Origin: Mesaphorura yosii
Taxonomy: Eukaryota; Arthropoda; Collembola; Poduromorpha; Tullbergiidae
Direction of reading: 5' to 3'
DNA: 64,000 bases
NCBI GenBank assembly: GCA_009869945.1
Contig: WIXG01000178.1
Location: forward strand, 62,001-126,000
Positions 4,939-50,353 of this stretch are shown in pieces; the first letter of the stretch is position 1; every line of letters starts with the position of its first letter. The position numbers were made by a program, and so were the translations under genes. A model generated the notes under the pieces. That model had not been told where the DNA came from and searched no databases. It saw nothing but the letters and a program-made list of their open reading frames with translations.

Positions 4939-7798
4939 TCATTCATTGTAGGTATAGTTGTACTGATCTCCAAATTTATCCCTGTATTTTTTGTGATCAA
5001 CTTCGTCCAAAGCTCGGGCAACACGTTTTACGGCATTTCTAAAATAAACAGCACATTCAATTAGCGCTTTAAAAGAAGGTGGGCAGATTTTATGTTTTCT
5101 GAAGCTCAAACTCAAATACCTGCTGAGTACTTTCCTCTCCAATCGAGCCCTAGACGTTTTTCTCTCTTTGTCAATATCAGTCAGCTCGGGATACTGCTCA
5201 GAGAATGTTTTCTTCTTTCTGCCCTTCTTGGGAGGCTTCACTGTCAGATCAATTCCTATTTGAGCCTGAACAAGAATATAACAAAATAATAAAATAGTAA
5301 TAGTATCAACTGTTTGGGTTAATACACATTGATTGTTCCACCTCGTTTCTCTCACCTGCAGGTCTTTCAGGAACGCTGGATCCTGCCATTCTGGAGGCTT
5401 GTCTTTCTCTTCTTGTGCCTTTCGTTCAGCTTCCTTGACAATGTCCTCGGCATTTGTGGGATTCCCAAACTCATCACGTGCAATTATACTCCCATGAAAT
5501 GGACACTGATGCAAAAAAATTGACTTACTTAGAATTGTCACCAATCGGTTGACACTTGACATTTCCTTACGTTGACTCTGTCCCTTCTTGGACAGAGGGT
5601 TCCAGTTGACAGCGGAGCTCGACAAGCCCATTTCACTGGCTCAAATGCACCCGTGAACTCAATCGTTCGGGTTCTGAGTGCCGCAACTCCTTCAGCAGCT
5701 TCGATAACCTCACCTTCTCGGTCACTGGGCTGCCAGAATCGGTGTGAATCAGATTCAACTCTGAAATAGAGAGAAAATTTTGCAAACTAAGCTAACTATA
5801 GCACGAAGCCAATTATGCGAATTGGGCAACTAACAGCTCAACCGATGGCGCAGTCAGTTTTTCGTCTTCCCAATGGTACAAGTCTATATCATAAGGCAAC
5901 TTTGGTGCTTTTTGCAAAAGTTTTTCTTTACGACTCAACTCCCCGGGACTGCAAACTTCACTTTTGATTCTGGCATCAGAAGATGTACCCGGTTTTTGAT
6001 TGTTGTCATGGATTTGGTCTACTGTAGATTCCTTTAAGCTTCGTATTCTGGCACCCAATGTTGTAGGATCCTAATTTGCCGAGAAATGAACGCGGGTATA
6101 TTAGTTGCACAAATAGTACATTGTCACCGATTCAAGAAATCTTCCATACATTGGGATCGTTATCAACTGGGCCCCATAATGACCAGGAAGAAGTTTCAGG
6201 TATTCTTTTACTGGCAGCTACACTAGCACCGTAAGTTCGCGAGGTTGAGGGCACGGGAGACAGTGGTCGGACCGGTGGAGGTTTAACGAATTCTTCATAG
6301 CCATCCTTCTCTGGTACATCTTCAAAGTCTGAGTCGTTCGTATCTGAGAAAGAGAAACCCACGTAAACGGTTGTGATCAGTACACGGAAAACTTTGGACT
6401 TTAAATAACGTTCCTTGAATAATTTACCACTGTCACTGTCGTCTCCATTTTTCTCCAACCCTGAGTTAATGCTCAATTTATCATATCGATTTATTTCCTG
6501 TTCTACAATTTGCTTCAGGTCTACTATTCGTTTGAAGAGATCCAAATTGTCTAAAAATTGGCAAATAGTCAACAGATTTTTCACAATTGTCAAAATAATT
6601 AGCGACTAGGAATTTTGTAGAAATTTGCCTTACCTGCTTCTGTCACAACCTTCAGCCATGTTCTAATCTTCTTAATAAATCGGTTCTTAAGTACATGATA
6701 CAACTCCTTCAAGGTATCAAAAATGACTTGATTGTCTTCACTACGGGTCACAGTACTCATCGAACTATTGGGCACAGTGACAGTAATTGTGGACCATCCG
6801 AATCCCAAACCATGCTCACGCAGATTGATCGACTCATCATCACTGCCGCCGTTGTCAGTCTTGTTCTCGTCCGGAACAGCTTTCTTTGTGTCTGACGCTT
6901 CAAATAAATCATGGGGTTTCGGAATGAGTAGCTCGAAGCAATTGCCCATTTCGGCAACGACCTTGGAAATTTCTTCTGCATGGTCATTCACTTCAGCCTT
7001 CAATACCTTCAGTTTGGATTCGATGATTTTCCTCTGTCTCTCTTCTTTCTGTCGTGCAGATGCAACTTCGGCATTGGTTCTCTTCAGAACATCGTCAAAA
7101 TCGATCTAAAACCAGCAGACCAATACAAGCACAATACGTTATTTTATTAACCTTCTCTTTTAGGGAAACTGAACTCGATAAAGTCACCTTAAGCTTTTTC
7201 TTCAAATTTACGAAAGTTGTATGAAGTTGTCGGTAGTCTTTCCCAAACTCTTTATCCCAAGCCTGAATCAGCTGTAACGTTTTCCGTTTTAATTTTCTCG
7301 CCACTGAATAAGGTTTCGGCAGCTGTCTATCAAAATTCGTCTCCAGAGTAAGCTCCAGAAAAATTTCCATGTCGTCGAGCAGGAGTTCACGATAAGGTTT
7401 GGACCGTCTGTATAATTAAAAATAATGCAATGATTTCGTGAAATACTTCGGATTCCCAGACACAAATACTTACGATAGTAATACAGTAATACTTTCGACT
7501 TACCTGAATAGTTGTTCAATCACCAGAAGGGTTCCGAAACGAATTTCCGAGTGATCCCTTTCCAACTGCTGCATGACTTTCTGGTGACATACTTTTAAAT
7601 ATTCCTCAGAGCCACTAAAGAGTACAAGTACAGTGTCAAAATTTATATACTTTCGCCAAAGCTAAATTGCCAAAGATCTGCTCACCCAGCCTGGATCAGG
7701 AACTCCTTCAGTAATTTCGGATCCAAAATATCTTTCCCAGTTGTTGATAATTTCTCCAGGAGCTCGCTCATGGACTGACAGATCTTGACTTCCAGCAT
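4939..7798 (-). CDS. UVSSA: UV-stimulated scaffold protein A
   Basis: UVSSA binds stalled RNA polymerase II and helps recruit TFIIH and USP7 in transcription-coupled nucleotide excision repair. Minus-strand exons: 7798-7686, 7614-7504, 7407-7188, 7105-6634, 6550-6428, 6343-6150, 6070-about 5838, 5760-5571, 5505-5356, 5265-5120 and 5038-4939; about 683 residues against 709 in human. Residues about 1-150 are the VHS/ENTH-like helical domain (KLLKEFLIQAG, EIFLELTLETN, WDKEFGKDYRQL). The C-terminal DUF2043 region includes SDSHRFW, the zinc-binding CRAPLSTGTLC...CPFHG near residues 535-556 (C-x9-C-x7-C-x2-H), PEWQDP, and a terminal basic helix ending near DQYNYTYN. The start ATG at 7798 gives MLEVKICQSMSELL and matches the family N-terminus. 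The seventh intron is unresolved: a GC donor at 5837 keeps the frame and the expected spacing, while a 44-nt GT-AG intron (5830-5787) would add about eleven residues. Confidence 0.95.
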
Positions 7799-11100: not shown

Positions 11101-14100
11101 TAAAGGTGACTTATTCTAGAGTTTGGAGATGCGATTGGGTGACTGGGTATACCTTTGATGAAGTGGCGGTCGTCGGCGTGGACTTTGGGGCTGACCGCTC
11201 CTTTACATTTGTTTCTTCTTCGCTCTTCGATACTTTTGACTCCACTTCTTGCGCAACGTCCACGTCCGATGTGACTTTCGTGTCAACATTTTCCTGCAAA
11301 ACAATGGTGATGACACAAGATTAAGGACTTGCAAATACCATAAAAACAGAGTGATTTGAAGAATTTTCTGAATCCATAGACCGATAGTCCAAAATTCTGA
11401 CCTGCTCAATAAGATTTGAAAAGGAACACTAACAAAACAATTACAACCCTCTCACGTTAATTAAAGTTTAATTCTTTGCTTTGAAAAATTTTGACCTGAC
11501 CAGAATTTGAAATTGGAAGAGACACACAGCACAAGATATGTGACGTTACTCTCTCTGCATTGCATTGCGGGTGAAGTGAAAATGTGGACCTCGACGTCGG
11601 ACGTCCGAGGCGGAAGCACGGAAGTCGGAGGTGAAAATACGGATGTTTGCGAAGTCGAGGTCTGAATTCTTGGCCCGACTTCTTAACCTCGGATGTTCAA
11701 CTTATCATACACAATAATATAGAACCAAATGCACCCACTATTTCAAATCAATCAATTCTATTCTATTTTATTCTATTTCAATTTCAGCTCCTCCTTCGAG
11801 TTTTTCAGTCCTCCAGAATGTGGTCCTTTGATAAATGGGCGTACACCAGGTACCACTTGAATTAAAGTACGAACCTCTGAACCGTCAAATATATGCTCTT
11901 CGTCCAATCGGCAGGCCAGCCCAGCGAAGATGAACAGGAAGATACGAAGGACATCACTGGTAGCGAAGAAATTGGTGATCGGAATAACAGTCGTCAAAAC
12001 AGCGGAGAAAGCACGACTGAAGACCAATGTGGGGGTGGTGAGGGTAACAACACTGAAGCGAACAGCGAAAGTGAAGCCGATCCGTAGTATTCACCCTGAG
12101 TGGCAAATCGAACGACAGAATGGTTCGATTCTCGACAATAAAAACAATTTATTAATTTAGACAATTTTTCCGTGTGCTTAATAATGTTAAAAATAGTGTT
12201 TGTTTGTGTGTGTTAATAATATAATGTATTATAATTGGAGTTACATTTATGGAATTTCACGTTTTGATCATTTGCCGAGATTTCAGACCTCGACTTCGCA
12301 AACATCCGTATTTTCACCTCCGACTTCCGTGCTTCCGCCTCGGACGTCCGACGTCGAGGTCCGTATTTTCACCTTACCCTTGCATTGTTGCTAGCTAGCC
12401 GCTCTAGACATAAGACTGCTTTGGTCTTTACCACGTTTGAAATCGATGTTAATTTCAATTAATTCAACCAGTTTGACTCAACGCGAAGAAATGCATGCAA
12501 ATTCTTGTGCAGAAAACTGAGACGAATCAATTACATTAGCTATGTGTTGAAAAATTCGCGTCAGTATTTTTCACTACGCACGATTGAAGTGTAAAAGCTG
12601 ACATGGGGTTTCGGGTTGTTGTGAAGAAGTTCAGCTCGCCATGTAGACTCGAGTCTTAGGTTTGGGCGTTGATGGTAACCTTTCGCTTATGGCGTAAGGC
12701 ATTTAGTAAGCTCTAGTGTCAATTACAGAGGGTTGCCCATTCGTTTTGAGACGACTTCGAAACCGTTACCTGACTATGTGTATCGACGGTGTATCTGGTT
12801 TATGTTTTCCACGTGGTAGCCCTGATTCTTGACGACTGCCCTGAGCCTTCTTTTCCAACTTTTAAATGTATTAGTCACCAAATTTTGATCTATGTTGGCC
12901 CATTCGTCTTTTAAAATTTTCCACACTCCATTCAGCGATTTTGGTCGGCGACGAAAAAGTCTTCTTTTCAAATAACCGAATCCAAAAAAGTCTAATGGAC
13001 TAACATCCGGAGATTTTACTGGAATGTCCCTGTTTTTTATAATGGTCACTCCCAACCTCGCTTTTAAATCAGTTGCGTATGCTTTAGTTTTTCGGGCGGT
13101 ATGCGATGTGGCCTTGTCATGGTGCACCTTCACCTTGGACAGCTCCCCAGGGTACAGGCGCGGGAGATCTTCTTCTAATAATGGTTTCAGGACATCGTCG
13201 ATGTAGTATTGCGCATTCACCTTTACTTTTTTTGGAACTCGGATTAGTCTTAGTGTCCCACGCCCTGTTATCGCACCAATCACCATAAATGTTTTAAAAA
13301 AATTCTCATGGTCAACCACCCAATCTTTCGGTACGTCCTGGCCTTCTCGCACATAACATATTTTTCTTTTACCAGCACAATTCGATAACCCAAACATAGC
13401 CTCGTCCAGCGTCACCACATATTCCCATTTGGAGCCGGACAAAAAGTTTTCGCATAGTTTTCTGCAGTTAGTCTTGCGGTTGGCTCGGTGATGCGGCAGT
13501 ACTCGGTGAACTCGAGATTTTCGGCGTTTTTTTTTTACCCAGGGCCCTGATTATACGTTGCACTGTCTGTCTTGACACTTTTACTTCACGTGCAATCTCG
13601 ATTTGGCTCGGTGGATTTTCACGGGAGGTCAGAATATCGACCCTTTTCACTATGGCCGGGGTGACAACTCGGGACTTGGGTTTTCGAAGCGGCGATGGAT
13701 GACCAGCAGCTTTCGCCTGACGCTTTTTTCCAATGTTTTTAATAATTCTGCACACAGTGGCCTTCGAAATGATGATTTCCTTTTCCTTGCACTTGTCCAC
13801 AATCACGCGAGCCCGGAAAGCGCTAAAACGATGCCCTCCACTTTGGGGTCAATTTTCTTCGGCATTTTGAAAAATATTTACAATAGCTGACATTTTTAGT
13901 AAAACGGACGTATTTCCTACACATATGCAAGTTTCTATTTGAAACTGGTGACTATTCGCATGGAACATCGAGAACAAAGTCGTCTCAAAACGAATGGGTA
14001 ACCCTCTGTACAAATATTTGAAGGGGAGTCGGGCTTGCTCCGGCTACAAACCCCCACAATTAAAACTAAAGATAATTTTGCAAAGTTCTTTGCAGGGATT

Positions 14101-17100: not shown

Positions 17101-19260
17101 CCAAAAATTTTAAAATCGACGCGAACTTAGGTTGCATGATAACGTGTGACTCGTGTGGAGAGCGAGTTGTACTTTGGCCTCTGAACCCCTTATGCCATGC
17201 GATGAAAATGGATGAATTATTCTTAATGCATTCTTCTCAAGAATAGGATTAAAAAATCACCGTTATGGTTGCTCACATAAGGTCATAAGTCAAATTGGCC
17301 TATCGACCAAGTTATGGACCCCGACATTCCAAGCACCCTGCCGCCGAATGCATTGCTGCCTGGTGTCGACCAGCCGCACCATTTCGGGTTGACGAAATCT
17401 CTCGGCAATCGTTGAGAGCCGCCACTGCGGCTTGCCAGCGTGAATCCTGCCCCCTTCTAATAGTGCTCTTGATGTTTGTCTGTACAGCACAGTTTTATGT
17501 GTTGTTTAAATTAAATACAAAGATTTAAACGACTTTTAGACGAGCAGCAAGCCGAAAGCTTGCGGAGCAAGCTTGTTTACTGCTAATGCTTTGAGGCGGA
17601 GGCGGAGTACATGCTCATGTTTGCATAATTCTGCCTCCCCGAGTTATTAACAACTTCGGCGATTCGGTTGAGAATGAGTTGAGAGCCCTCAACTTTCTCA
17701 TTCTTGAGCAGAGTTTATCCGGTGACTGAAAATTGCCAAAAGCTTCCTACCCTGTCGATCGACAAATTAATCATGCATCGAGTCATGAGACACCACGTGC
17801 GTGGTAAAATTTCGCAAGTCGAATTCGCAACTCAATTATAGTGCACGACGTTCTCCCTTAAAAATCCAATTTCTACTCTTTCTTGCAAGGAGTAGATACT
17901 GCATTGGGTGACACTTCTAAATTAGTGCAAAATTTGATACCACAATTAAAGTGTAACAGTGGAAGGGGTTGATTTTTAATTACATCAAGGTCAGTTGCAA
18001 GTGTTGTAAAAGTGGTCGATTTCACTTACACCTGTCCCTTCTGCTGTTTCGTCTTTCTTTTTCTGCTGTTGTGGGGTTTTAAGAATCTCTTCCACGCATT
18101 TTCCGGATTTTTCCATCAATTTCCTGGCCATCCAGTTTTTTATTGCTGAAAATCAAGACTTGTCGCGTAAGCTTCGTCCTCATTAAAACACAAAATGCAG
18201 ACGCATTCTGGTAGTTTGCATGGAAAGTCGGAAAGGAACGTATTTTGTTGTGACTGTGACTTACACATTTGATGGAAGTTGTGTACATGTGGCGGATAGA
18301 ACGAGTTTGAAGACTGTGAGTAATGATCGTACTCCGTTTTCATGAGGCGATAAATTCCTTTGACCATGACAAGTGAGTCTGGCAGTGTGAAGCGAAAGTT
18401 CAATGATTCGAAAATGTGTCCACGATACGCTGGGCGTGAGAAGAGATTTCCCCACAGAGAGTGAACAATTTCCTTTGTTGACAGACTATTTTCGAAAACT
18501 CCAACTTCTGGATCAAAGAGATCTCTCAAATCAATCATGATATTGTACGAACCCTCGTTCAGAAATTTCTGTTGAGTCTCGCAAAAGTCGTGATAAATCT
18601 AAGACAAAAATGAAAACTTCTCAGTCGTGGGCACAGTCGTCGTGCTTTCACCATCGCCAACTTTCTTCCCGTGCTGTGGCGTGCCGACAGTAGAATTGTA
18701 GAATTGAATATTTGAAAGTCAGCTTACCAATCCCATTTCGTACAAGTTTTGAATGCCTGATGTACTCGGAGGAAGTTGTAAAAACTCTTGCATTTCATCA
18801 ATGAGCTGCGGAATAGAGTAAATTGCAAACACTTAACCTGAATTCAATTCGTGCCCGCCTTTCGCGCCGAGATGAACAAGATACACTAAACAAGAATGCA
18901 AAGTGAATTGACCTGCAGAATGGTCGACGTGTATTGAAACACGATTTCCAGCTTGACCTGGCCTTCCAGTATTAAATTAACCCACTCGACATAAAACGAG
19001 TTTACTGCGTTCAGCTTGGCAATATCCGGTATGTGACGGCACTCGATACGGATCTCACGCTCGAATGTGGAGTCTTCGGTCTCTGCTCCGCTCGATTCGT
19101 AACGTTTGATTATATTTCCTGATTCAATTAGCTGGTCCACTCGCAGAATGTTCTCCCTCGCGATGATTTCCTCACGAATTCTCTTCTCTTCCAGTTCCTT
19201 CTCTATCCGCTCCAGCCGCTCGCGTTCTTCCCTCTCTGCCTTTTGTTTGGCTGATTCCAT
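8187..19260 (-). CDS. DNAI7: Dynein axonemal intermediate chain 7 (CASC1 / CFAP94)
   Basis: Fifteen exons (minus): 19260-18913, 18805-18728, 18598-18265, 18145-18030, 15721-15413, 11293-11153, 11060-10994, 10724-10551, 9651-9495, 9418-9145, 9061-8960, 8937-8777, 8698-8584, 8515-8414, 8327-8187. They join without a frame break to 872 residues (human 716). The protein is an axoneme-associated component of cilia and flagella. Residues 1-50 are a charged Arg/Glu coiled coil. Exon 3 has the conserved LFDPEVG...HSLWGNL and ending YRLMKTEYDHYS. Residues about 293-460 are a poorly conserved acidic/lysine-rich insert, the counterpart of a variable charged stretch in vertebrates. The core follows: FDPPTPVRW, STDGFYDV, NLPYQSWEIKP, ALRSRGLDVFPDF, FHWSRWNLL, ending SLLSSVRPLSFS. 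ATG 19260 was chosen because no in-frame upstream ATG is visible. Introns 4, 5 and 8 (2.3, 4.1 and 0.9 kb) are much larger than the rest; introns 4 and 5 carry repeats. Confidence 0.96.
9652..10550 (-). other. DNAI7 intron 8 (0.9 kb)
   Basis: Long for this locus. Short open frames occur on both strands but none looks coding, and no repeat or mobile element was recognised. Confidence 0.6.
11568..12379. mobile_element. 812-bp inverted-repeat DNA transposon (non-autonomous)
   Basis: Two arms, 11586-11666 and 12282-12362, are perfect 81-bp inverted copies. Homology continues outward to the ends with mismatches (GGGTGAAG at the left, GGGTAAGG read inward from the right). Both ends are flanked by TTGCATTG (11560-11567 and 12380-12387), an apparent 8-bp target duplication as made by hAT and P-type elements. 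There is no transposase catalytic region inside, so it is non-autonomous. The interior carries the exon-like gene end described separately. It sits in DNAI7 intron 5. Confidence 0.85.
11788..12087 (+). pseudogene. Gene 3' end carried inside the inverted-repeat element
   Basis: A pyrimidine-rich acceptor (...TTTCAATTTCAG) precedes an exon 11788-11849 that can be read as SPPECGPLINGRTPG. A donor GTACCA follows, then a 65-nt intron and an acceptor GGCAG. The second exon, 11915-12087, joins in the same frame and encodes an acidic Ser/Thr/Glu/Asn-rich tail ending ANSESEADP at a TAG stop. An AATAAA signal follows at 12137-12142. The ECGPLINGRTPG string resembles the start of a sushi/CCP repeat, but it is too short to assign. 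It is either a captured host gene end or the 3' remnant of the parent element's transposase. It lies opposite to DNAI7. Confidence 0.4.
12726..14008 (-). mobile_element. Tc1/mariner-superfamily transposon (DD41D type)
   Basis: A 1283-bp element with 32-bp terminal inverted repeats (12726-12757 and 13977-14008, one mismatch, starting CAGAGGGTT) flanked on both sides by the TA target duplication (12724-12725 and 14009-14010). It contains one disrupted transposase gene on the minus strand. It lies in DNAI7 intron 5, antiparallel to no host exon, and splits an older dispersed repeat. Confidence 0.95.
12774..13865 (-). pseudogene. Mariner transposase, frameshifted
   Basis: About 364 codons from ATG 13865 to the stop at 12774. 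The N-terminal part has two helix-turn-helix-like segments (ISKATVCRIIKNIGKK and VSRQTVQRIIRALGKK) that would bind the terminal repeats. The C-terminal part is the DDE domain with all three acidic residues: VVTLDEAMF, VHHDKA and SPLDFF, the last two separated by 41 residues, which places it in the DD41D group. The gene is broken: a frame change shortly after the start (stop near 13805) and another in or near a T-run around 13528-13538 put the middle in a different frame. The two shifts compensate, so start and DDE domain are in one frame. As written it should not yield active transposase. Confidence 0.9.
14291..15412. other. Remainder of DNAI7 intron 5
   Basis: Single-copy-looking AT-rich DNA with no recognisable gene, repeat or element. 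Confidence 0.5.
15925..16515. repeat. Tandem diverged repeat, copy 1
   Basis: Aligns with 16680-17635 over its length. Landmarks: GAGGAGGCCAAATTG, CACTTCCGCGC, TAGAAAAGGT, ACACGGCGAATAC, CAGACCGACCTC, AAAGAAAAC, ATTTCGGGTTGACGAAAT and GCTAATGCCTTGA. No coding or terminal repeats were found. It sits in DNAI7 intron 4. Confidence 0.75.
16680..17635. repeat. Tandem diverged repeat, copy 2 (longer)
   Basis: Same landmarks as copy 1 and in the same orientation, with two extra blocks of about 200 nt (near 17135-17345) and about 120 nt (near 17450-17580). Either copy 1 lost these blocks or copy 2 gained them. Boundaries are approximate. Confidence 0.75.
17636..18029. other. Remainder of DNAI7 intron 4
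   Basis: About 400 nt without recognisable gene or repeat. Confidence 0.5.
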
Positions 19261-19743
19261 TGTCACTTCTCAATGCATGGAGCGACAAATCATTGATCGA
19301 TCAGGCTGATTAGAGATCGTATTGAGTATTGAGTGCCACAGCTTGAATCATCGACCCATACAATAGCAGCAGCATAAAGCAACAAAGAAACAAAACTCAG
19401 CCTTTAGAAGCCTACCCTCACGCGGTATGACGAGATTCAAAAACTTTATTTCGAAAACCCTCTTGTGGTGGTTTGGTATTTTTCCTTCCCCATTTAATTT
19501 GCTTGTACAGTTTGAAGTTTTAGATTTGAAATTAATTCAGCTCAGAGATAAGGCTATTGGGATCGGATTTGGATATTTTTTCGTGAAGTACTGATACGTC
19601 TCCGGTGACTTTGGAATTGAAAAACCCTGCTGTAAGTAACACACTTTTATTTATTGATTCTCATGCACAATGAATGTCACGGTCAATCTTCTTGTTTACG
19701 TTTTTACTGTGTTGACAATTGCAGGCCTTTCATCAAATCAATT
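19261..19743. promoter_or_regulatory. Shared divergent promoter region, DNAI7 / ETFRF1
   Basis: About 480 nt separate the two start codons, which point away from each other. A likely ETFRF1 5'UTR intron spans 19633-19724 (donor GTAAGT, acceptor TTGCAG), so transcription toward ETFRF1 starts before 19633 and the true promoter is shorter. No TATA box is obvious. A near-palindromic GTCTCCGGTGAC at 19598-19609 resembles an RFX X-box with one deviating base. Confidence 0.6.
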
Positions 19744-29757: not shown

Positions 29758-31759
29758 ATGAGCAGTACACCACTCTTCACGTACCGCCCCGCCCAGGGCC
29801 ACCAAAACAAGCCACTGGTTGTGGTGTTGGGCAATCGGGACTACTTGATTGAGAACATCCTGCGCGATGTGGCCGTAGTGCTTACTTTTGGAGTGCGGAG
29901 CGTCAAGAAGCTGAACAGATACACGTATCGTGAGGTCAGAGGACTATTTCTCACACACAACTACAGCTTCACTCTTGAAGATGTTGTCAATTTTAGCAAC
30001 TTGAAACTGATTGTGCGAATTGGATGTACGCACGATGGTATGGACTCTGACGTAAGCGCCGACGGATTGAAGCAACTCAGGCTCATGTGCACCATTTAGC
30101 AAGAGCATTTATGCAATTGTTGCAGGCTGCTGGAGAGTTTGGAATTGCCGTCAGCACCGTTCCAGGATACGGAGTGGAGGAAACTGCCGACACAACAATT
30201 TTCCTGCTTCTGAGTTTGTACCGCAAGAATTGCCTGAAAATACTTGAGGAGTCTGAGCCACGGCTGAGTCCCCTGCAGGTACACAAAATTTTGATATGCT
30301 GTTGCAATTTTATTGAAATTTAATGTGTCGTTTTGCCGTGTGTAGATTTACAAGGAGAACTTCAGAGTGCGAGCAATTCGGGGCGACACTCTTGGCATCA
30401 TTGGATTTGGACGCACCGGGCTGGCCGTTGCACTCAGAGCACAGGCATTTGGAATGAACGTCATCTTTTACGACCCTAACGTGCCTGTCGGGATCGAGGT
30501 GAAGTTGGGAATCAAGAGAGTCGGCAACCTTAACGATTTGCTGGCACAATCTGACGCAGTCACGCTGCACTGTCGCCTCACTTGCGAGAACAGGAATTTG
30601 ATCAATCCTGATAACATTCTGCGCATGAAATTCGGTAAAATTCAAATGATTATTTAATCATCATCACTGTTTCTTTGGTTTCTTCATAAAATGAAAATCT
30701 AATTGGAATTTGCTCCAGGATCTTTTTTGGTCAACGCCTCGCACTCTGGTTTGGTTGACAAGGAGGCACTTCAGCCATATTTGAAGGTTCGACGAATCGA
30801 CTGCGCCAGCCTGGACATACACGAGAGCGAGCACGTGTCGTTCTGCAAGCTGGGACCACGGCAAGCGATGCCGGTGTCAATGTCCGAGTACTTGGACGCT
30901 CGCAGCATGGAGCTCAGGTGAGTTGCATCTTCTTTGAGCCATTCACGTGCATGTGCATTCATAAATTCGTATTGATGGTAATAACAGGACCATGGCGGCT
31001 GTAGAAATGCGACGTGGAATAATTGGAACGATTCCGACTTCATTGTCAAGCTGCGTTAACGAACAGTGCTTATCGCGTGGATACGGAAGCCTTTTCAACC
31101 CACCGGCAAGCCAAGGCTCAAACACATCGCCGGTTGTGTCAAGCTCCACCGACTCGGATGACACGTGGATCAGTAGCGCACGCAGCTCCTCCATGCCCGA
31201 TCTGATTTCGCCCTCTGTCGAATCTCAGCTGATGCCATGCCGAGCAGCAGCAGCTCCAGCTCCAACCGGGGCGGCAAAATTGGAACCAGATTCCAGCCGC
31301 GTATTTCCATTAATTTGGATGTCGGAGTCGAATCCTCGTTACGCGCAGCCGGATGTCTTCAGGATAACTGGTCCGGGACTAGCATCTGACCTTCATGGAG
31401 GGCAAGGTGGTTGGCACAGAGTTGAGAATGAGGATGGCGGACGTGGAGGTGATACAAGCAGTGACTCCGACTCGATGTCCGAAGACAGACCTCTTCTGCA
31501 GGATGGACACGAAACATCTCCCTCACCTGCACCAGCATCCGCACCCGTGCGAGTGCCAGCGATCTTGCCCGCACTGGAGCCGAGACAATTCAGGCAGCTC
31601 CCAATACCGTTTAGCCAGAGGATGCTTCCGGTGCCCATACAGCCAATTCCGGCACCGATACAGTTGAGGGAAGGCCCTCCATCGGCCTACGTGGTTCGTA
31701 TTCCGAGACAGTATCGCTCCGACTCGCCTGCTCCGTCATCTAACGAGAGATACGTTTAG
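29758..31759 (+). CDS. Divergent CtBP-family protein, probable pseudo-dehydrogenase
   Basis: Exons 29758-30051, 30126-30278, 30346-30634, 30719-30917 and 30988-31759 join to 568 residues. CtBP proteins are NAD(H)-binding transcriptional co-repressors of the D-2-hydroxyacid dehydrogenase fold. Family signatures are [25 protein letters not shown]...[22 protein letters not shown] (GxGxxG, residues 169-174), VIFYDP and DAVTLHC. NAD binding therefore looks possible. Of the catalytic Arg-Glu-His set, the Arg of the usual NTARGG motif is His254 (NASHSG), the Glu of HESE is kept (residues 281-283), and the His of the usual CTPHAAW is gone (MPVSMSEY, residues 296-303), as is its Trp. A tail of about 225 residues after SSCVNEQCL is Ser/Asp- and Pro-rich and looks disordered. 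Human CtBP1 has 440 residues. This looks like a diverged paralogue, not the canonical CtBP gene. Confidence 0.9.
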
Positions 31760-35122: not shown

Positions 35123-38100
35123 AATTCCAATTCTTATTGTCCGATCAAAATTCAGTGCTCACAGAGCATCTCGTCGCATCTTCTTCGCCGAGTCCATTCA
35201 CTCTGTATCCTTTTCTCTCCGAATGAAAGGGAAACTCTCAATTTAGATTTCGTATTATCTGAAGTACCAGCAAAAAAGAAGAATGTGCGCTTTCCTTCTT
35301 TCCCTCCTGATTCTTGGCTCAGCTGTTCTTGTTCATCATTCTTTTCTTCACGTTGCCGTTACGCACTGTAAGCCCAATAAGAAAGAACAACAAAGGCAAA
35401 TAAAGCCCGAATACTTTCGACTTAGGATTTGAATAGGAAATTGAAAGCGGGGTGTCCTTTCTTCTTGCTCTGCAGTCTTGCACGATGTGTTGATGCTCAT
35501 TTCTGGCTTCACATTCGAGAATCGACTGCTACCATTTTGCAAGGCTTTTTATTGAGTCATTTTATGCCTTTACTACTTGCGGATTTTACTCAAGTTTTAG
35601 GCTATTTTTGGCGGACATCGCAATTCGGTGAGTGTAGTTTTGATCAGATTCAGGAAAATTATGCAATATGAAATTACTCGAACTTCATGTGGACGAAAAA
35701 TGCTTCTTTTCGCCTTATAGGCGCTTTTACATGAAAATTAGCCAATGATGATGGCGATTAGATGGAATCAAATTACAATTCAGCCACGAGGAGCCAGGTT
35801 TCATTAGATTGAGTATGGAAAACCGGAAACAAAGTGTTTGTTTGCCACAGCCTAAAAACGACAAACAAGTATACTAGTAAGCAATCTCGTAAACGTCGAA
35901 AATGTAGCGTGTTTCTCTTTTTAATCGTGCTCCTGAGATTTACCAGCTCGGATGTGATGTACGTAAGGCGCTGGTCGTGTGTATCAGAAGAAATTGGAGA
36001 CGGAGACTGCCGAGGCTGAGGAAGTGGGCTTGAAGATTTTGCAGAGAAAGAAACCACATAATAAGAAGACCTGGTTTGTATTATTACATGAAGAAATCAT
36101 CTCGTTCACTTGATTCCATTGCTTTGGCTGATTCTCCTCGAGTTTTCTCCTTTGAGGTCTCTTCCATCCTTCGCTTTCTTAAATATTGCATAAATATATT
36201 ATATTCAGCCTTTCCTTTGTTTTTGTTTTTTCCGTAGCAAGCAGCATATTTTCCTCGTACCAGCACATCATCATCAACACCATACAAAAGAGTTTACTTG
36301 AATAATTCCACGCAAGGAGTGACTGTTTATCTTTTCAAAAACTTTGTTTTTCTTCTTGGGTGTCTTTCTTCCTCGCTGTTTGAGTAACTTAGCATCAAAA
36401 TTCTCAAGACGCTTTTATTTCTTGCAAGTGAAAGCAGCGGAAGTTGCAAACGCGTTCCACAGCAAACAAACGAGTGAAAGCTCAGCTTCAGTTCGCTATC
36501 TCCCCGTAAATTTGAGCAAATTTACGTCCCGAGTTTCGGCCCAAGCCGAAGCACAGCACAATGACATTGAAATGCTAATTTTTCTTCGTTCTGGGAGGCT
36601 TTTGTAGTTTGTTTGAATCTGGCAGCGTACAACCTGCGCAAAGTCAACATCCAGCAGCGTGGCAGCGTGTGTACATACACACTTTTACTGAAGGTTGCTA
36701 GACTATTTTCCATATTTCTGCCTGCTTTCACATTCTGTCAAAGACGTGACTGCTCATATTCAAGTTCAAGAACAACGAGACTGCGCTTGCGAACTGCAGA
36801 GACCCGACCAGGGACATGTACGACAAAGATATATTGCTGTTCTCTCTCGCGCATTTGATTTATTTTGCATAGCATTTGAGTTCAAATGTCAATGTCACAG
36901 TCACGGTGGCTTCCCCGTTGTTTCAAATTACCGGATCGGTGGACCAAATGATTGATTTGCGTATAGAAAGACTGAAGACAAGCCGCGCCTTGTCTTGCTG
37001 GACTCAGCAGATTCAATTACGCAATGAATTCGCTTGACGTAGAAGAATTGTGATGAATGAAGTGGACAGTTATGATGTCCGCACTTTCTTGTTGTCATAA
37101 TTATTGATCTGCCATCTGGCATTACACCAAATAGCCAAAGCTCATCGAAGACATTGTATCATGGAACAATGGAAGTACATTTCTATCTGTCACCACAAAA
37201 AAGTGATTTCATGAACACGCTTGCGTGTGAGTGGAGTTGTCTTCCCACATCAGACTTAATCTGCTCTCCTGCTATGCACTTAAAGAAATTAACCACATTC
37301 TGTTGCGTCAGCATCCAGGTGCTTCGCTTGGCAAATGGCAAAATTCATTTTTGTCGACCCACGCATTTGTGCTATTTGTGTAGCCTTCTAATTAGGAAAG
37401 AATTCTAATGCGCCCATAAAGTCATCATTGCGTCGGCACTGTGCGTCATCGCTGAAGAATTTTCGTGAAATTTTAATTATGATTGGCAGGGTTAAATTAA
37501 AGGCTTTTATTGTGAAGTTTGACCATTATTGTGGAATTATTCAAGTATGGTTTCATGTTTTATTTATTACGATTGCATTACAAGGATGATTGCTATGACG
37601 TACGGTTTTTATTCCATAAAGAAATTGAGTTCAGTTTCCATTTTGTTTAATGCTCCATTGAAGGAAAGTCTCAAGACCCGGAGGAAAAAATGGAGAGGAA
37701 TTCTTATTTTGAATTCTAATTTTTGACTTAACGATTTCCCCAAGAGCATTTGCGTTTATTATTTTCACCATGTAATTTTCGACACTTAAAAATGCCAATT
37801 CGTTCGAAATCCGACCAAAAGCACTCATTTTTGTCAGCCGACATGCCAATACTCCATTACGTGAACTAATTTAAACTATAGACGCCGAATTACATGTGTT
37901 CCCGTGAGTAATGGGAGAAAAATATCCTTAAAATTATGTCACACATTTCCGTGGAATTGGAATCTTTAATTTTTTATTTATATTTTACTGCTAATTGGAT
38001 TGCTCATAGTTTAATGACAATTGAGCACTCAAGCAATATTGGCCCTCGATGGATTAACGTATATGACCCTCTAAATCTGAATGAGAACAAATCAAAAATA

Positions 38101-41100
38101 CGATTGCCTAAGTTACGATTGTTAATAAATCGTTAAAAGTTTGTCGTGGGTCTTGAGTCCTAAAAATAAACCGCTTCCAATGACTGCTTACTGCGGATTG
38201 CTTTCTCAAAGTTTTTCTGACGAGAGCAAAGAAACGAAGCAGAATCCATACTCAAGCCAAGGCTTCCGACTTTGATAGATTACAAAGCTTTCTTTCTCTA
38301 GTGTTGTCTTACCGTCTTATAAATTTATTGTCTCCACTGCTGTGCCCATGCTATGCCAAGTTTTCCAGGCCTGACTTGTCATTTGCTACAACGTCCATTG
38401 GCTTCTTGAATGATGATTTCTGCATAACTCTTAAATCAATCTGAATGCTCAACGTACATGATATTCGTGATGACAGCAAGTGCAAGTGTAAATCAGCGGA
38501 GGAAGATCTCTGATTTCCATTCCACCGAATTTCAACACATACGGAGTAAATTTTAGATTTGGCACTGCGTCTGACTTCCTTCCGCCGTGCGGCATTCAAT
38601 AATGTTTGGGTACGAAGAGTGCGAGTCGGGCAAGCGAAAGGGAAAGTCATTTGGGCCCATTGGCAAATGCGCGAACCACAACAACGGCGACGAGTACCGG
38701 GAAAAGAACGCTAGACATCGTAATTTGTTTCAGTCGACGGTTGTGTGTTTTCTAAAGACAAGGAAAAAGAGTAATTATGTTCAAGGTGATGACTCTCCAA
38801 GTCTATTGTTTTTGTATTTCTCCTTGTAAAGGCTGCAAGACCAAAGTCAGTGGACTTGCATGAGAGAAAAGAAATTCGTTGCCTTTGAGGCTGCTCGTTC
38901 ATTACCTTCTTTGTAGAGTTTCTGCCCTGCAAATGAAGTCCATGCAAGTAAATCGTGACATGAGAATTTTCCATCGATAAGAGTTGAACGTGATGTGGAA
39001 GTCAGTTTAATGGCGCATTCCGTGATAATCATCCAACATGTACCCGAAGCTAAATGCGTAACCCAATCTAACGTCGTGTATACAAGGAAAGCAGCAAAAG
39101 CACAATGTCAACTGTGTACTTTGTATTTTCTGAGGAATTGCAAGTCAATTGTCAAGCGCTAGTTCCTTGTAAAAGTCTTTTATAGCCTAAAATTAATGAT
39201 TTTTTTTTTACAAATCAAGTATTTTTCTTGGAAAAGTGCAGAAGTCTGAAACCTGAAACAGCTATTTGACTTGCTGAATTGACTTCTTCAACTTTAAGTC
39301 AAGTCCAAACTGAGATCAGTTGTTAATAACTAGCAAATGCGGACATGATGCAAGTTGCCAAATATCTCGTCACAGGTCGCTCGAAAATTGCTGTACGATT
39401 CTCCATCAATTGACTGTGGTTAATTCTCACATGCAAATTAATTCGGCATTGAAGCACACTCGATTCGAGCAATTAAGGGCGGTTCGCATTCATTAAACCG
39501 TAATTGTCTGAGCACTTCCAGGACGAACTTCAATGGAGTCTTGTAAATGTGATTCGTAATCTCTGGTAAATTCCTTTGAAGCGCCATTCTTGCTTTGAAT
39601 GTTTTTATATGCCATGATAAAATGCACCTAATTATACTAACGACCTGCCATTAGTACTTTTCTCCAGCTTCGAGTCCCATTTTATCAATACTTGGCTTGG
39701 GCTGCTACTCAGATCATTCTGCCTGCACGTTCAGAAAGATCACATCGTATATTATATATGCATATATGGAATTAGAATGAAGTGATTTGGAATCATTGAA
39801 CATTTCTTAAAGTCTTTCTCCGTTCACCTTTCTTGGGAATTTGCATTTCACTCGTACCCTGTCGTCTTTCCGATTCCAGAATTTTTTGCTAGGAAAGTGC
39901 GACCTGGCAACTTATAATTTTTCCTCCGAATGTGAGGAATCGAGGTACTTGAACATGCAGATTCTCTCTATTTATAACTTTTTTACTTGGGTAAATAGCT
40001 CGTGCACGCCACGAAACTCTATAAATGATCAAGACAATTTCCTATTTTTCACCATGCACATTTACATACTCTTCACTGTTTTTTTCCAAGCTCAACGCGT
40101 TCCCCGCAACTTCATCTTTACACAATGTATACACATTTCGCATCACTGATCGTAAAAAAACAAATTTGGAAATTCAAAACTGGCTTCATTCGCTTCGGAG
40201 TTTAATTACCCCAATTAAAAGTGATCATCAGTAGAGATTGTAGCGCTTTAAGTAACTTTAGCGTTCTGAGCATTTCACTAATGTGAATGTTAATGGCACT
40301 GATCAATCTGTTAAAACCTTGCAACGTTGTAACACTGGAAAAATAACTCAAACCTTTCTTTTCTGACCGCCAACTATACACAGCCGGCGGAGGAATCAAA
40401 GATCTGGACACTGCACATCGCTCTGCAAGCGCAGATAAAGGAAAGAACCAATCTCTTGTTTTTCCAGCCGATTGATTTATAACTATCAGCTTGCGGAAGC
40501 AGAACTGTGAAAATTGAAGGAAAACAACACTTGAGCTGCAATTGTACAGTAGTCGTTGGCTTCCCCATAATCATGGAGCGGCGTAAAATGGCCGGAGTGA
40601 AGTACATAATATCAGTTACCTAAAGCATTATGAGCGTCTGGAGAAATGCGATGCGAGCCTAGTGCAAGCGAACATGGGAAAGGGAGAAGATCGGCCGGCC
40701 AAGAAATGAAGATAACAATTCCGCGTAATATAACTTATAAGAGGATGCAACAGCAGAAAACCATCCAATTGTTTTTCAAGACCATCAGGGATTGAGAGAA
40801 CTCTTCGCTCCTGCACTGTGCTCATTCGCTTGTCGTGATTTATGTATCGGAAATAGAAAAAAGAAACCAGTGCCCGAGAAATAGAGAAATTGAAAGAGAA
40901 ATAATAATGCAAAATCACTCTCCACTTTCTCGGTCGCAGTCGTTTCTCTTGCTTACTCAACTACTTCATTTCGTCCGCACTGACGTGAGATGTATTTAAG
41001 AAGATTGACTTCTGCTACTAATAAATAACCTCAAAATACATTGCTTTGCAGGCCGTTGGCTAATAAAAACTGAAGTTGATTAAATGCGTCCCACTTCATC

Positions 41101-44100
41101 ATCTGTTCCTGTAATCCAATCTGAGGTAGCCGCGCCAAAGATCAATATGTGAGTATTTTCTGGAGTTCTTGCCTTTCAGCTTTCAGCTCAGACTTTGCAT
41201 TGATTTAATCTTGAATCATACATTCTCTACTCATTTGTTATCTTCTTAATATCTGAACCGGTTTTACCAGTTGGCAAATTAAGTACTTCAAGTCAAGTTA
41301 CAGAAAAGGAACCGAGTTACAGTCATCAAGTCAAGAGGAACGAAAACTAAAAGAAAGCTGCAAAGGAAGGAATAATTGCATGCTTCCGTTTCCGCTTTCA
41401 CCAATCTCCATTTCCCCTCTCACAATACTTAACTGTCTCTTGCTTTTCTGTGGACGTGCATTCTAATTGCGTAACGAAGGTTCAGCAGACACGGCGGCAC
41501 GGCAGTCGTCACTCAATGACTGAATACGCCTGTGCAATGCATGAAATATTAAGTGACAGTTGTTCCTGGTAGTAAAATCCGTACTCAGGCACGTTTCACC
41601 GTTTTTGTACTTCGAGCCCACTGCTCAAGTGTTCAGACAGTTCGTCCATATGACAAGTGAATGAAAATTTCTTTGTCAAAGAACAATCGGAGAAGGAGGG
41701 AAAGCTCTGATGTGAGTTTGAAGGCTTGACACTTTTTTGCTTCAAGTATTATTATGCAATCTGGGAAAGTAACAAGGAAAGCAGAAGAGACAGAGACAAC
41801 CAAGGCGAAAACTAAAGAAAGGAAGGAATGAAGTGAGGCATGCACGATTTTGCTGCTTTTTCTATACTCTCTGCTCCCTTTCCACAGTTTTTGTTGATTT
41901 CACTGGTTTGGTTTGCTGGGTTCATTCGAGTCTAGAAAGAAAGAAACTGCCGCTCGACTGCATTTTCTGTACTTTTGCGTGTGGATTTTCTCCTGACATG
42001 AAACTTTTATCTCCTCCACTGATTTCGTTTTGATTGGCACTCAAAAAATATGACAGTGTGTTATACTTGGAGACTGCGCGGCGTGGCAGGAACAAACGAC
42101 CAGCAGTGAATGAGAAACCAAGATCAGCGTGAAATGGCCTCGCTTGTTTCCCGATGCAAAATTGGGAAAATTGTTGTGGAAACACTGAGGAAGTTTCCCG
42201 CGTTTGTTATTTATACACAGCTGACCGCTTTAGCAGGCCGACGTGCACGGAGAAATGACGCACTTATTGCGATGGCAGGCTCCACCAATTATTATTCGAA
42301 AAATGCCAACCCACAAATGCTTTTATGTGAATGTAACCAGAAGAGACTGCTTACTTCATTCACCCGCTGTCTCGGCGTATGAGTAGGTTATTCGATCAGT
42401 TCATTTCCAATTTTAGCGAGTGTTTTATTGCCAAAATAATGGATTCGGGAGCTGCGTTTCGCAGAGGAAGAAAGTTTCCTGAAGAAGACAATAAAAATTG
42501 TTTTTACTTCAAACAGACAAGATTTTGAGAGCGATGAGATGATTTGCTTAACTCGGACTGGAGGAAGTTTGGGCCGGGTGAATCTGTGCTCCGGACATTT
42601 ATCTCTTACTCCATAAAATTGATGCAATGCTTTGGACAACCAGTCTGATATTTATTGCATTTCAGACGAAGGTAGTAGTCGACACCAGGCACAAGGATCG
42701 TTGAACTAGCCGATCGTAAGTGTAGTTTATGATTGCCGAAATGTATTTCTTCATTACAGTCTCTGAATTCTATTTGTAAAGCGTTCGCTCATTTCGTAAT
42801 TTAAACCATAGCCGAGCACTGCGTATTTGATGGGCAAAAAATAAGGAAATGATCAAGTGGCTGAACAAAGGAAGCGGTGAGCGGTTCTTGTCCAGGTTTA
42901 TGATCACTCCATTTATCGACAGTTCCTGCATTCGGAATGTGTGCGCTACACACGCACCCGAACACTAATAGCACGTTGTGGGGAGGAGACTTAATGGAGA
43001 AAATGTGGAAATTTCTATGAAAAATTCTTTGGTCTGGCCAAACAAGCAGAGCCTGAGTACGGCATGAGAACAACTCATCCTTCAACACACTAACCATTGA
43101 TTTATAGTCTCGGTGTATGTATTTATGGTATCGCGTCCCGCCGGCGTGAAAGATCACATGCAATGCGTACTTGTAAGTATCATTCTCGATACCGTTATTG
43201 AATAACCAATCCCGGAAAGTGCCATGACCTCACCACCGCACGGCCGCAACTCCGCAATGAGCGCCAAACCCTTTCTTTCGCTGGTTGGAAATTCTTGAAC
43301 GGGCCAGGCCTCTGAAGAGCAATTCCCGGGTTAGAAATATTTCATAAATCAGAATATGGGTGGATACGCATCATTTATTTTACCGTGTGCGCTACTTATT
43401 CGAAAAGTGCACATTATCAAACAATAACGAAATGTGATATTGGTGCTAGATTTCAGTGAACAGCGTTGCTAGAAATTGGAATGAGTAGCGAATTCCCTTA
43501 AGGAACTTAGAAGACAAAGATAGAGGAAAATTTGGACGTACTGAGCGGTTAATAAGTAGTAGTTTCCAATACGCAATTATGACGTTATACACGTAAAATC
43601 AAGGTTCATGTTCACGTTCTACTAAAAGCACACGTCAGCTCCCGTTCCTCTCAAAACATGAAATTTTTGGTGCCACTGACACTGTAGAAGGACCGTAGAG
43701 AAATACGGAAGGAGCGAGTATGTGGCGAGAAAAATTGAGTAATAAAAATACTCTCATGTAATACAAGGGACCGTATGTAAACAGCAGCGCCAGTTTTCTC
43801 GTCTTGGTGTTTATATGCTTCAGCCAAGTGAGAATTAGCGCAACATGTCTCCGCTGCGAAGAATTGTGTCATACATAGTTGGTTGTTAACGCAGATTGAG
43901 TCACATTTCACGAGAAGTCTTTCCCGTCCCGGGGTGTCGTCAACAACGAAAAAGCCATACCGGCGTGGTTATCGTCTTCTTCAGTGTCGTCATTTGTTTC
44001 TAATCCTCCATGCTCCGTCTTCCCCTCCAGAATTCCAGCCACATGTTCGCGTCACACAGCGCAGCACACTAAATTTGTAACAGGCAACAACGGTATGCAC

Positions 44101-47800: not shown

Positions 47801-50264
47801 AATGCAAAGCAGGTTCAAGTGTGCAAAAGGACAGTGTAAAGGGCACGTGAGTACGTCGCTCAAGGCTCTTCCTTTACAACTGCGACTAAAATGAATATGC
47901 AACGTGTATTTAGGTAGAAAGTATGGGAGTCCTTTGCTTGCCCTGACTTTCCTTCTCCGGGCTTCGAGTTCCCTTTGTTTAAAAATCCTTGGGATGAAGG
48001 CACGCAATACAAGAGGCAAATAGCAAATACGCGAGCCATGCAATTTGCATTATAGTAAGTGCTCTGATCTGCAAGCTGCATCTTTGAGATTGCATTTTTC
48101 CGCATGGTAAGCAAAAGAGAAGGATCAAACGCAATACGCAAAAGAGTGCAAAAACTGTAGTTTTCTCAAATCTTCCAGCGGAATGAGAAAAGGCACACAG
48201 CAGGACAAAACTTTCCTTGTGTTTGCTTGAGCAGCAGTTGCTGATTGCAGCAGAGGATAAGGAATGGCGCTTTTGGGAACGTGTATATTAACCGTAAGAG
48301 AATTGCAATAAAAGCAGCAGACAAAAATAAAGTCCAAAACCTCACGCCTTGCCAGAACTTTGTTGTCTTGCCAGAGTTTGTGTCTTGAAATTGCCTATCT
48401 TCATCTTATAGTGCGGGGCGTGCAGTTCTAAGCTCAAGTCGCCCTCAGGACGTCTCAATTTGATTGTACTAAATTATTCCTTGTCGTGCCTGTAAAACAT
48501 TCAATTTACTTTTGCACAGTTCCTGGAAGTTGGAAAATGACAAGGGAAGACGAGGCGACACAATTTTATTCCTGCCACCCGACCCGAATCAATTCCGCGA
48601 CAATCTTCGAAGGGAACAATAAGCAATGGAAGCAGGGACGGGTTGGGCTCACAGTTTAACGAACTGAAATATGAATCTGATTCGAAATTCGTGGCAGCCA
48701 TTAAACAGGATTCGTGATTATTATTATTAGGAAAATTCTTGGAAAGAAAAGAAAAAACCACAAGAACATGAAATCTGAGGAAGGAATTGACTGGCCGGGC
48801 TTTGGGGGTTCGCAGTTCATATTCCACTGTTTTTGAAATATTACATTCAGATGCACAATCAAGTGGAAGAAAGTGCATTAGTGCGTCTGGAGAACACGCA
48901 ACCGCTGCTAACGAAGGACTGTTAACATGGGAGCGAGAAAAGAGTTAAAGCATGGATAATTCCAATTTTGTCAGATTTCTTCATCAGTCTTCCGGGACGC
49001 CGACAAGCTTTCTTCTTCCTTTTCATTTTCATGGCACGATGATGTGGCCGTGACAAGTGAGGAGCGGCTCTAACGAGTCAATGATTCATCTCGCTTGATA
49101 AGGAAGTGAAGGCAAGGAGAGGTTAACGCGACGTTATTTAATGCACCACACGAACGGTTTGAATGGGGTCGTTCTGCTTGTAGGAGAAGAACAGAACGGG
49201 TTTTACTACAAGACAGCAATTGTACGTTGATGAGCTGACGGGGACGATGACATGGCGAATTCGATGGAGCAAGGGCAGAGCAGGAAGATGAACACAGAAC
49301 AAGCCAACTGAGTGAGAAATAACAGAATTGACGTTTTTTGTTCTTTCTCGCCAGCCTGAATAACCTGTGCAAGAAAAACAGGAGAAATCGTAATAAAATG
49401 AGGAAAGTCAAGAGGAACAGGAAGCAGAATATAAAATAGAAGAATCTGCCAGAGTGAACCAGTCGAACGTGAGTTATTTCCTGGCAGCCATGTCGCTTGT
49501 CGTAGCTGCTGTCCCGAAATGGGTGCATTGATTCAACGCTTTTGTGCGAGGGAACACATGCAAACAATGGATGCGTGTGAAGACCTAACCTTTAGAAATC
49601 TGTATTTTAGGCATTTGTCAGAACGCTTGAAAAATCAGATCCAACAAAACCAACACGGAGTACGTGAGAATTATGTACAAATTTCATTGCATATGCATGT
49701 AGAGCACGGAGCAAATCCAGGCTAAAGCGAGGAAAAGCGTGCATGTCTTTATGTGTTCAATTCATACAACGAGAACCGAAGAAAAGAATTCTATTCCTTA
49801 AACAATGGAAGCTCAGGAGATCATAAGACCGTAAAAGATCAGATTTGTGAACCTACAAATACGCACTGAACAGTTGAAGCGCAGGCACGCAGAAATCATA
49901 CAATCTGTCTCGGAGACGACAACGCGGTGTTTTGCCTGAGTACACTCGATGGCTGAATTTCTGTCCTCAATTTTACAGAAAGCTGGAGTCTGATGGTGCG
50001 ACGCGATTCAGAAGAAGTTCTTTGCTTGGAGCGCCCATGATAAAATCAGCACATAAAGTGGGAGTCCTCTGCTCGATAAAAATGAAATATTTGCCAAACT
50101 AAATGCACACCGAAAGAAGAAAAGAACAAAGAATATATTGTGGTTTTCGGTTTAAATAAAACTTATGTGCTGTGTGCGTAGAAATAAACCCCGAAATATC
50201 AAAGGGATTTCTTCAGCAATATTTGGCTAATGCCAAAGAAATTATTGTTCATAAATTATGGAGA

Positions 50265-50353
50265 TTTCCCTCCATTTCCCCTATATCTCCCATTCCCCCC
50301 TATTTCCCCTATTTCCCCCTAATCCCCGCTGTTTCCCTCACTCCCCCCCCCTT
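50265..50353. repeat. Polypyrimidine tract with C-runs
   Basis: Almost pure C/T over about 90 nt on the plus strand, with at least six runs of four or more C, ending in a run of nine. The minus strand has matching G-runs separated by short A/T-containing loops, so it could form a G-quadruplex or triplex. Confidence 0.8.

Follow-up and report, generated by a model that had tools for sequence, protein, structure and literature searches.

Beside an intact canonical CtBP, the genome studied here carries a second CtBP gene, which lies in the window (the whole 64,000-nucleotide stretch analysed, C178:62001-126000) and encodes a protein that has kept its NAD-phosphate site and lost two residues of the catalytic triad along with much of the PXDLS-docking region. 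Judged from its sequence, this protein is a CtBP by descent, and I would give an even chance to the reading that the gene is a kept CtBP duplicate turned into a non-enzymatic, NAD(H)-binding scaffold with rerouted partners. In outline, a DNA-level duplicate of CtBP would have been retained under selection beside the intact canonical copy, and the loss of the Arg and the His of the triad would have left it without an enzyme centre. NAD(H) would still be bound, mainly through its phosphates, and the assembly of the protein would change with NAD(H); most PXDLS partners would no longer be docked, while a tail grown from 67 to 231 residues, together with altered surfaces, would recruit other partners. 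The outcome would be a scaffold that responds to NAD(H), for which ANGUSTIFOLIA of Arabidopsis offers a parallel, rather than an enzyme or a standard corepressor.

Two CtBP genes in one genome

The gene and its exons are as follows.

29758..31759, forward strand: CtBP-like paralogue, five exons, 568 aa plus stop
29758-30051, 30126-30278, 30346-30634, 30719-30917 and 30988-31759, forward strand: its exons, with GT-AG introns and an open spliced frame

A first-pass annotation, made from this DNA alone, had placed the gene correctly, as is confirmed by the five-exon spliced model, in which all four introns are GT-AG and the frame is open over 568 residues. The protein matches the Pfam families 2-Hacid_dh_C (E=1.5e-33) and 2-Hacid_dh (E=1.6e-8). 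Among the best 60 of 148 matched sequences in a search of solved structures, the top 15 were all CTBP1 or CTBP2, at 251.5-269 bits, and the next family scored 95.3 bits, so that the likeness to CtBP is beyond chance.

The genome (93.0 Mb in 1127 contigs) holds a canonical CtBP of 417 aa on another contig (C20:244698-246738), with NTARGG, HENEP and TPHAAF, and hence an intact Arg-Glu-His triad. The first-pass annotation had taken the window gene for a paralogue and had suggested a genome search for a second, canonical CtBP; the copy on C20 with its intact triad bears this out, and the window gene is not the only CtBP in the genome. A search with the Pfam domain gave 14 matches; the window protein gave 16 (five in the window, five on C20 and six elsewhere), and the canonical protein 17 (five on C20, five in the window and seven elsewhere). 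The other places were 27-40% identical to these two queries, bar two exceptions: a 26-residue piece at 54% (E=6.3) and a match of the tail on C881 (E=0.10), which I take as chance. Further CtBP copies were not seen among the best-scoring candidates considered, where a fragment could be missed. In locus L021 (7082-8663, forward strand), two frames that follow the canonical CtBP resemble 7tm chemosensory receptors, below the Pfam cut-offs. Together with a Crust_neurohorm gene (2 matches) and the arthropod-like look of the canonical CtBP, they make an arthropod genome probable. A COX1 search gave no match (8 of 14 controls were detected), and a search for 7tm_6 gave none, in its controls either.

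All four introns of the window gene agree with those of the canonical copy in position and phase (0, 0, 1, 2), which marks it as a DNA-level duplicate of CtBP and rules out an origin as a retrocopy. Across the core, taken as residues 28-352 of CTBP1, 253/325 positions (77.8%) of the canonical copy match human CTBP1, human CTBP1 and CTBP2 are 88.6% identical, and the window protein matches the canonical copy at 154/317 (48.6%).

The placement of the window gene changes with the outgroup. With two dehydrogenases of the same genome as outgroups, the four CtBPs are set apart at 100/100, and within them the window gene and the canonical copy group together at 43/0, with the alternative not rejected (AU p=0.44). 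With eight bacterial outgroups the CtBPs are set apart at 90/90 (not starred), and the window gene falls outside the other three at 78/87, with an AU p of 0.068 for joining the canonical copy. Both placements are unsure because of the long branches. At the 49 sites that are the same in human CTBP1 and CTBP2 but different in the canonical copy, the window protein matches the canonical copy nine times and the human proteins eleven times (P=0.82). A search of genome contigs gave 21 bacterial loci at 28-39% identity, and a search of viral contigs gave ten pattern matches and no relative. Two of the bacterial relatives, L029 3875-4510 and L030 673-1305 (39% and 38% to the window protein), contain PHSGFY; on a simple pattern look both are without the string N..RG at the catalytic Arg, which is present in the other six outgroup rows.

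Catalytic residues, NAD site and docking region

The sites compared with CTBP1 are listed here, all by alignment.

30742..30744, forward strand: catalytic Arg R266 replaced by His254 (NASHSG), codon CAC
30829..30831, forward strand: catalytic Glu E295, kept as E283 (HESEH)
30862..30894, forward strand: His loop, residues 294-304, in which H315 aligns with S299 and the W318 position is E302
30403..30420, forward strand: GFGRTG dinucleotide-binding motif, residues 169-174, including the counterpart of the phosphate-binding Arg
29878..29958, forward strand: residues 41-67, equivalent to CTBP1 51-77, strand and helix of the PXDLS-docking region, aligned without gaps

One of the three triad residues that characterise the canonical corepressor, the Glu, is kept. 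That two of the three are replaced had been proposed before, and both changes (R266 to H254, H315 to S299) are seen under four MAFFT settings, which put the counterparts of R266, E295, H315 and W318 at the same four positions. Five residues are absent in frame between P297 and V298 of the His loop. Exon 4 has 199 nt, against 211 nt in the canonical copy, and this in-frame shortening by 12 nt corresponds to one residue gained and five lost at the His loop; all differences in exon length between the two genes are multiples of three. The first-pass annotation had also pointed to the loss of the Trp next to the catalytic His. Its position is indeed occupied by E302, but a Trp is not constant there: its counterpart in the canonical copy is a Phe (F315), so that the argument is weak and only the loss of an aromatic residue is notable.

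The losses are unevenly spread over the core. I defined as invariant the 239 sites that are identical in three canonical proteins (CTBP1, CTBP2 and the canonical copy), of which the window protein keeps 131, with six falling in gaps. In ten regions, which were drawn after this tally was seen and whose P values are uncorrected, the best kept is the NAD-phosphate site at CTBP1 178-206 (18/21 invariant residues, P_high 0.002) and the most eroded is the PXDLS-docking region at 51-77 (5/24, hypergeometric P_low 4e-4); the H315 loop at 306-322 keeps 2/11 (P=0.013), the dimer-arm region at 141-175 keeps 6/18 (P=0.049), the C-terminal helix region at 323-352 keeps 16/21 (P_high 0.031), and five regions show no departure (36-50, 7/12; 97-104, 4/7; 118-128, 4/6; 207-221, 6/8; 260-270, 7/10). 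A region-free scan in windows of 20 sites found its lowest value at CTBP1 50-70 (3/20, permutation P=0.015) and its highest at 171-197 (18/20, permutation P=0.042).

At the NAD site both GFGRTG and the acidic residue that follows it (D192) are present, as had been noted earlier. The Arg of GxGRxG (R184 and R190 in CTBP1 and CTBP2) is described as binding the adenosine phosphate and triggering tetramers, and the nicotinamide contacts as dispensable for assembly (PMC7949142). This Arg is kept in the window protein, followed by Thr as in CTBP2, and a response to NAD(H) without a catalytic site is thus plausible, even though A265 to Ser, R266 to His and the loss of H315 could weaken the binding of nicotinamide. 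All five residues named for tetramerisation, the hinge GY, R, G and L (PMC9907507), fit the bilaterian pattern given there (G112, Y113, R172, G198 and L203). D209, which lends a main-chain carbonyl to the tetramer contact, is replaced by Val. In the arm (CTBP1 141-175) R142 is Lys, W145 is missing, R163 is Tyr and R171 is Ala. The arm, including its arginines, presumably forms dimer contacts, and with several of these residues changed, dimer and tetramer may fail.

These sites bear on the proposal that the window protein is a modulator or dominant-negative, which forms mixed oligomers with the canonical CtBP and tunes or blocks them through its poor PXDLS cleft. The tetramer contacts and the NAD-phosphate site that it would need are kept, as is most of the C-terminal helix region (16/21). 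However, only 6/18 invariant residues are left in the arm, where the arginines taken as dimer contacts are replaced. The canonical copy furthermore has near its N-terminus a KRPR cluster, the one occurrence of KRxR in that protein, to which I ascribe a nuclear role; KRxR is absent from the window protein, and the two proteins may therefore occupy different compartments. I consider such mixed oligomers unlikely, though they deserve some weight.

In the docking region A52 is replaced by Leu, F53 by Thr, V66 by Thr and Y76 by Thr, with V51 and H77 kept; I assume that A52 and V66 line the PXDLS cleft. The docking sequence of a canonical corepressor is thus not found in the window protein (5/24 in CTBP1 51-77). 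A literature search for the classic mutants of the A52/V66 type returned nothing. PXDLS-type motifs are described as pairing with beta-strand 2 of CtBP (PMC11187106), and in the CtBP2-G9a complex contacts are made by V57, F59 and R42 (PMC12809078). These correspond to V51, F53 and R36 of CTBP1; the window protein keeps the Val and the Arg and has Thr for the Phe, and since R36 and V51 are retained, docking may persist in part.

Could the protein still be a corepressor, with an altered cleft that docks changed motifs, and with a loss of the triad that was neutral, since the protein had never needed to act as an enzyme? The retained R36 and V51 agree with this, as does the description of CTBP1 as minimally enzymatic (PMC13066321), and CtBP tails are described as varying widely between lineages (PMC9907507). 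However, with A52, F53 and V66 replaced, 19 of the 24 invariant residues of CTBP1 51-77 lost and the KRPR cluster missing, this is to my mind quite unlikely. As both the triad and the docking sequence fail, I do not file the window protein as a canonical CtBP corepressor. The main story lies in the docking region rather than in the active site: its erosion, which the first-pass annotation had missed, probably bears more on function than the loss of the triad, given that CTBP1 has little enzymatic activity anyway.

Tail, constraint and setting of the gene

31064..31756, forward strand: C-terminal tail, residues 338-568, 231 aa, rich in Ser and Pro, with one lysine and a disorder-type composition

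The tail contains 15.6% Ser, 14.3% Pro and a single lysine, and 62.8% of its residues are disorder-promoting, compared with 42.9% in the core. Its FoldIndex is slightly positive (0.052, with 0.053 for the canonical tail and 0.233 for the core), so that disorder is likely from composition and not clear from FoldIndex. The earlier description of a new disordered tail of about 225 residues stands as to its length and its disorder-prone composition. However, the tail has 231 residues, and it lies in a last exon that matches the one with the 67-residue tail of the canonical copy, which makes it an expansion inside an existing tail exon. Between the two tails there is no significant similarity (best E 4.3), and no PXDLS-like motif was found in that of the window protein. 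It has one acidic-dileucine motif, DRPLL, at 478-482 (P=0.054 by shuffling), and one SUMO-like site, AKLE (P=0.027), which as one of 12 motifs tried is not significant. A PDB match to a sodium channel (E=0.015) I take as chance. By codon usage, a weak check, the coding frame of the tail, which is stop-free, outscores the other two forward frames; one reverse frame, with four stops, scores higher still.

Decay alone accounts poorly for the gene. When the canonical core was left to decay neutrally in a simulation, down to 55% identity, at least one stop arose in each of 400 runs (mean 6.9), so that stop-free runs numbered 0/400; the window gene has no stop in 568 codons. Pairwise, dN is 0.52 and dS 2.34 by LWL85, a dN/dS of about 0.22 that averages both copies and was obtained near saturation of synonymous sites, LWL85 being the only one of NG86, YN00 and LWL85 to give a ratio (NG86 was saturated). 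At four-fold codons common to both copies the third base agrees at 29/74, with 26% expected at saturation. The protein branch of the window gene is about ten times longer than that of the canonical copy (1.22 vs 0.12 with the own-genome outgroups, 1.11 vs 0.11 with the bacterial ones), and since that branch carries almost all of the protein change, its own dN/dS is probably higher, perhaps 0.4.

Constraint on the gene thus looks relaxed but real. One could hold that it has no distinct function and is on its way to loss, and the branch of 1.22 next to 0.12 for the sister copy, the joint erosion of catalytic, docking and dimer-arm sites, and a ratio on its own branch that is probably above the averaged 0.22 all point in this direction. 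However, the 568 open codons, the intact splice sites, the exon differences in multiples of three, the lack of stop-free runs under neutrality and a loss so uneven that it spares the NAD site make this very unlikely in my estimate.

An artefact of assembly, sequencing or gene model, or a contaminant contig, I find barely credible, although a single assembly is the source. Within this one genome, the changes involve several nucleotides, keep the frame and lie inside open exons, which makes an error of sequencing or exon model unlikely. The intron positions are those of the native canonical copy. A contaminant is unlikely because a transposon-like stretch in the window recurs on other contigs (11 matches, the best foreign one at 91% on C235, the others weaker), and the contig thus belongs to the genome.

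This transposon-like element lies at 12724-14010 on the reverse strand; its first 34 bp (12724-12757) recur inverted at 13977-14010 with 97% identity, and it has copies on C235 (91%), C662 (70%), C43, C237, C586, C101 and C319. One of its frames has weak HTH/Tc3-type matches below the cut-off, the larger frame has no Pfam match, and the Tc1/mariner type is my guess. Other features of the window are the following.

795-1808, forward strand: F-box-like, Pfam
3594-4109, forward strand: NIF phosphatase, Pfam, below cut-off
4942-5640, reverse strand: DUF2043, Pfam
18889-19269, reverse strand: Casc1_N, Pfam, below cut-off
42804-43229, reverse strand: SH3_retrovirus, weak Pfam match, below cut-off
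50264-50337: short C-rich tandem repeat with periods of 9, 10, 19 and 28

Neither a tRNA nor an Rfam family at gathering score was found within the 64 kb. The part from 32000 to 64000 looks gene-poor compared with the first 20 kb, though frames of at least 110 aa are present; in the few frames chosen there for Pfam (37076-37405, 38354-38710, 42804-43229 and 60797-61129) no match reached the cut-off.

Comparison with known systems

Why CtBP keeps a dehydrogenase triad is an old question, as corepression seems hardly to need an enzyme. A natural paralogue that spared the NAD-phosphate site while giving up two residues of the triad and a large part of the docking region would pull these functions apart within one animal. 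A 2023 survey describes the triad as conserved across bilaterians save nematodes, which lost one residue (PMC9907507), and 172 CtBP contigs from 116 pancrustacean species are described with the REH triad, with a single copy indicated in crustaceans that awaits confirmation from genomic sequence (PMC12897451). In the open-licence literature (titles and abstract starts, among the matches listed) no CtBP paralogue was found in which an animal has a broken triad, though print may hold one.

Compared with animal CtBPs (CTBP1, CTBP2 and the canonical copy), the window protein has a fully alignable core, with GxGRxG and its Asp, the Glu and the tetramer residues, but is without the Arg and the His of the triad, has an eroded docking region and ends in a tail of 231 residues instead of the 67 of the canonical copy. 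The vertebrate duplicates CtBP1 and CtBP2 and the lamprey CtBP-like gene are likewise paralogues by duplication, with a diverged tail in the lamprey gene (PMC9907507); the human cores, at 88.6% identity, have diverged far less. Nematode CtBPs share the loss from the triad and the lineage-specific tails, of 200-720 aa in Trichinella, but they lost one triad residue and not two, their core is about 60% conserved with invertebrate sequences, and they are described as the CtBP of their lineage, whereas the window gene is an extra copy (PMC9907507).

Closest in its described workings is ANGUSTIFOLIA, a CtBP homologue in which the triad is absent, a domain of the NAD(H) type is present and a long additional C-terminus follows (PMC5469197; PMC9907507); the triad loss and the long extra C-terminus are both found in the window protein, on a comparison drawn from these papers. 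ANGUSTIFOLIA seems to be no corepressor and is described as functioning outside the nucleus; when its NAD(H)-type domain is mutated, dimerisation and the binding of one partner are reduced, with NAD(H) binding itself unproven there (PMC5469197). For the window protein, the absence of KRxR is at most a hint of a non-nuclear role. It belongs to a plant lineage, is reported in print as one third identical to CtBPs, and is likened here by description only. It is possible, if doubtful, that CtBP has been split within one animal into an intact corepressor and an independently ANGUSTIFOLIA-like, NAD(H)-gated scaffold that lacks enzyme activity and PXDLS docking and finds its partners through a new disordered tail. 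If true, such a split would part NAD sensing from catalysis and corepression within a single genome.
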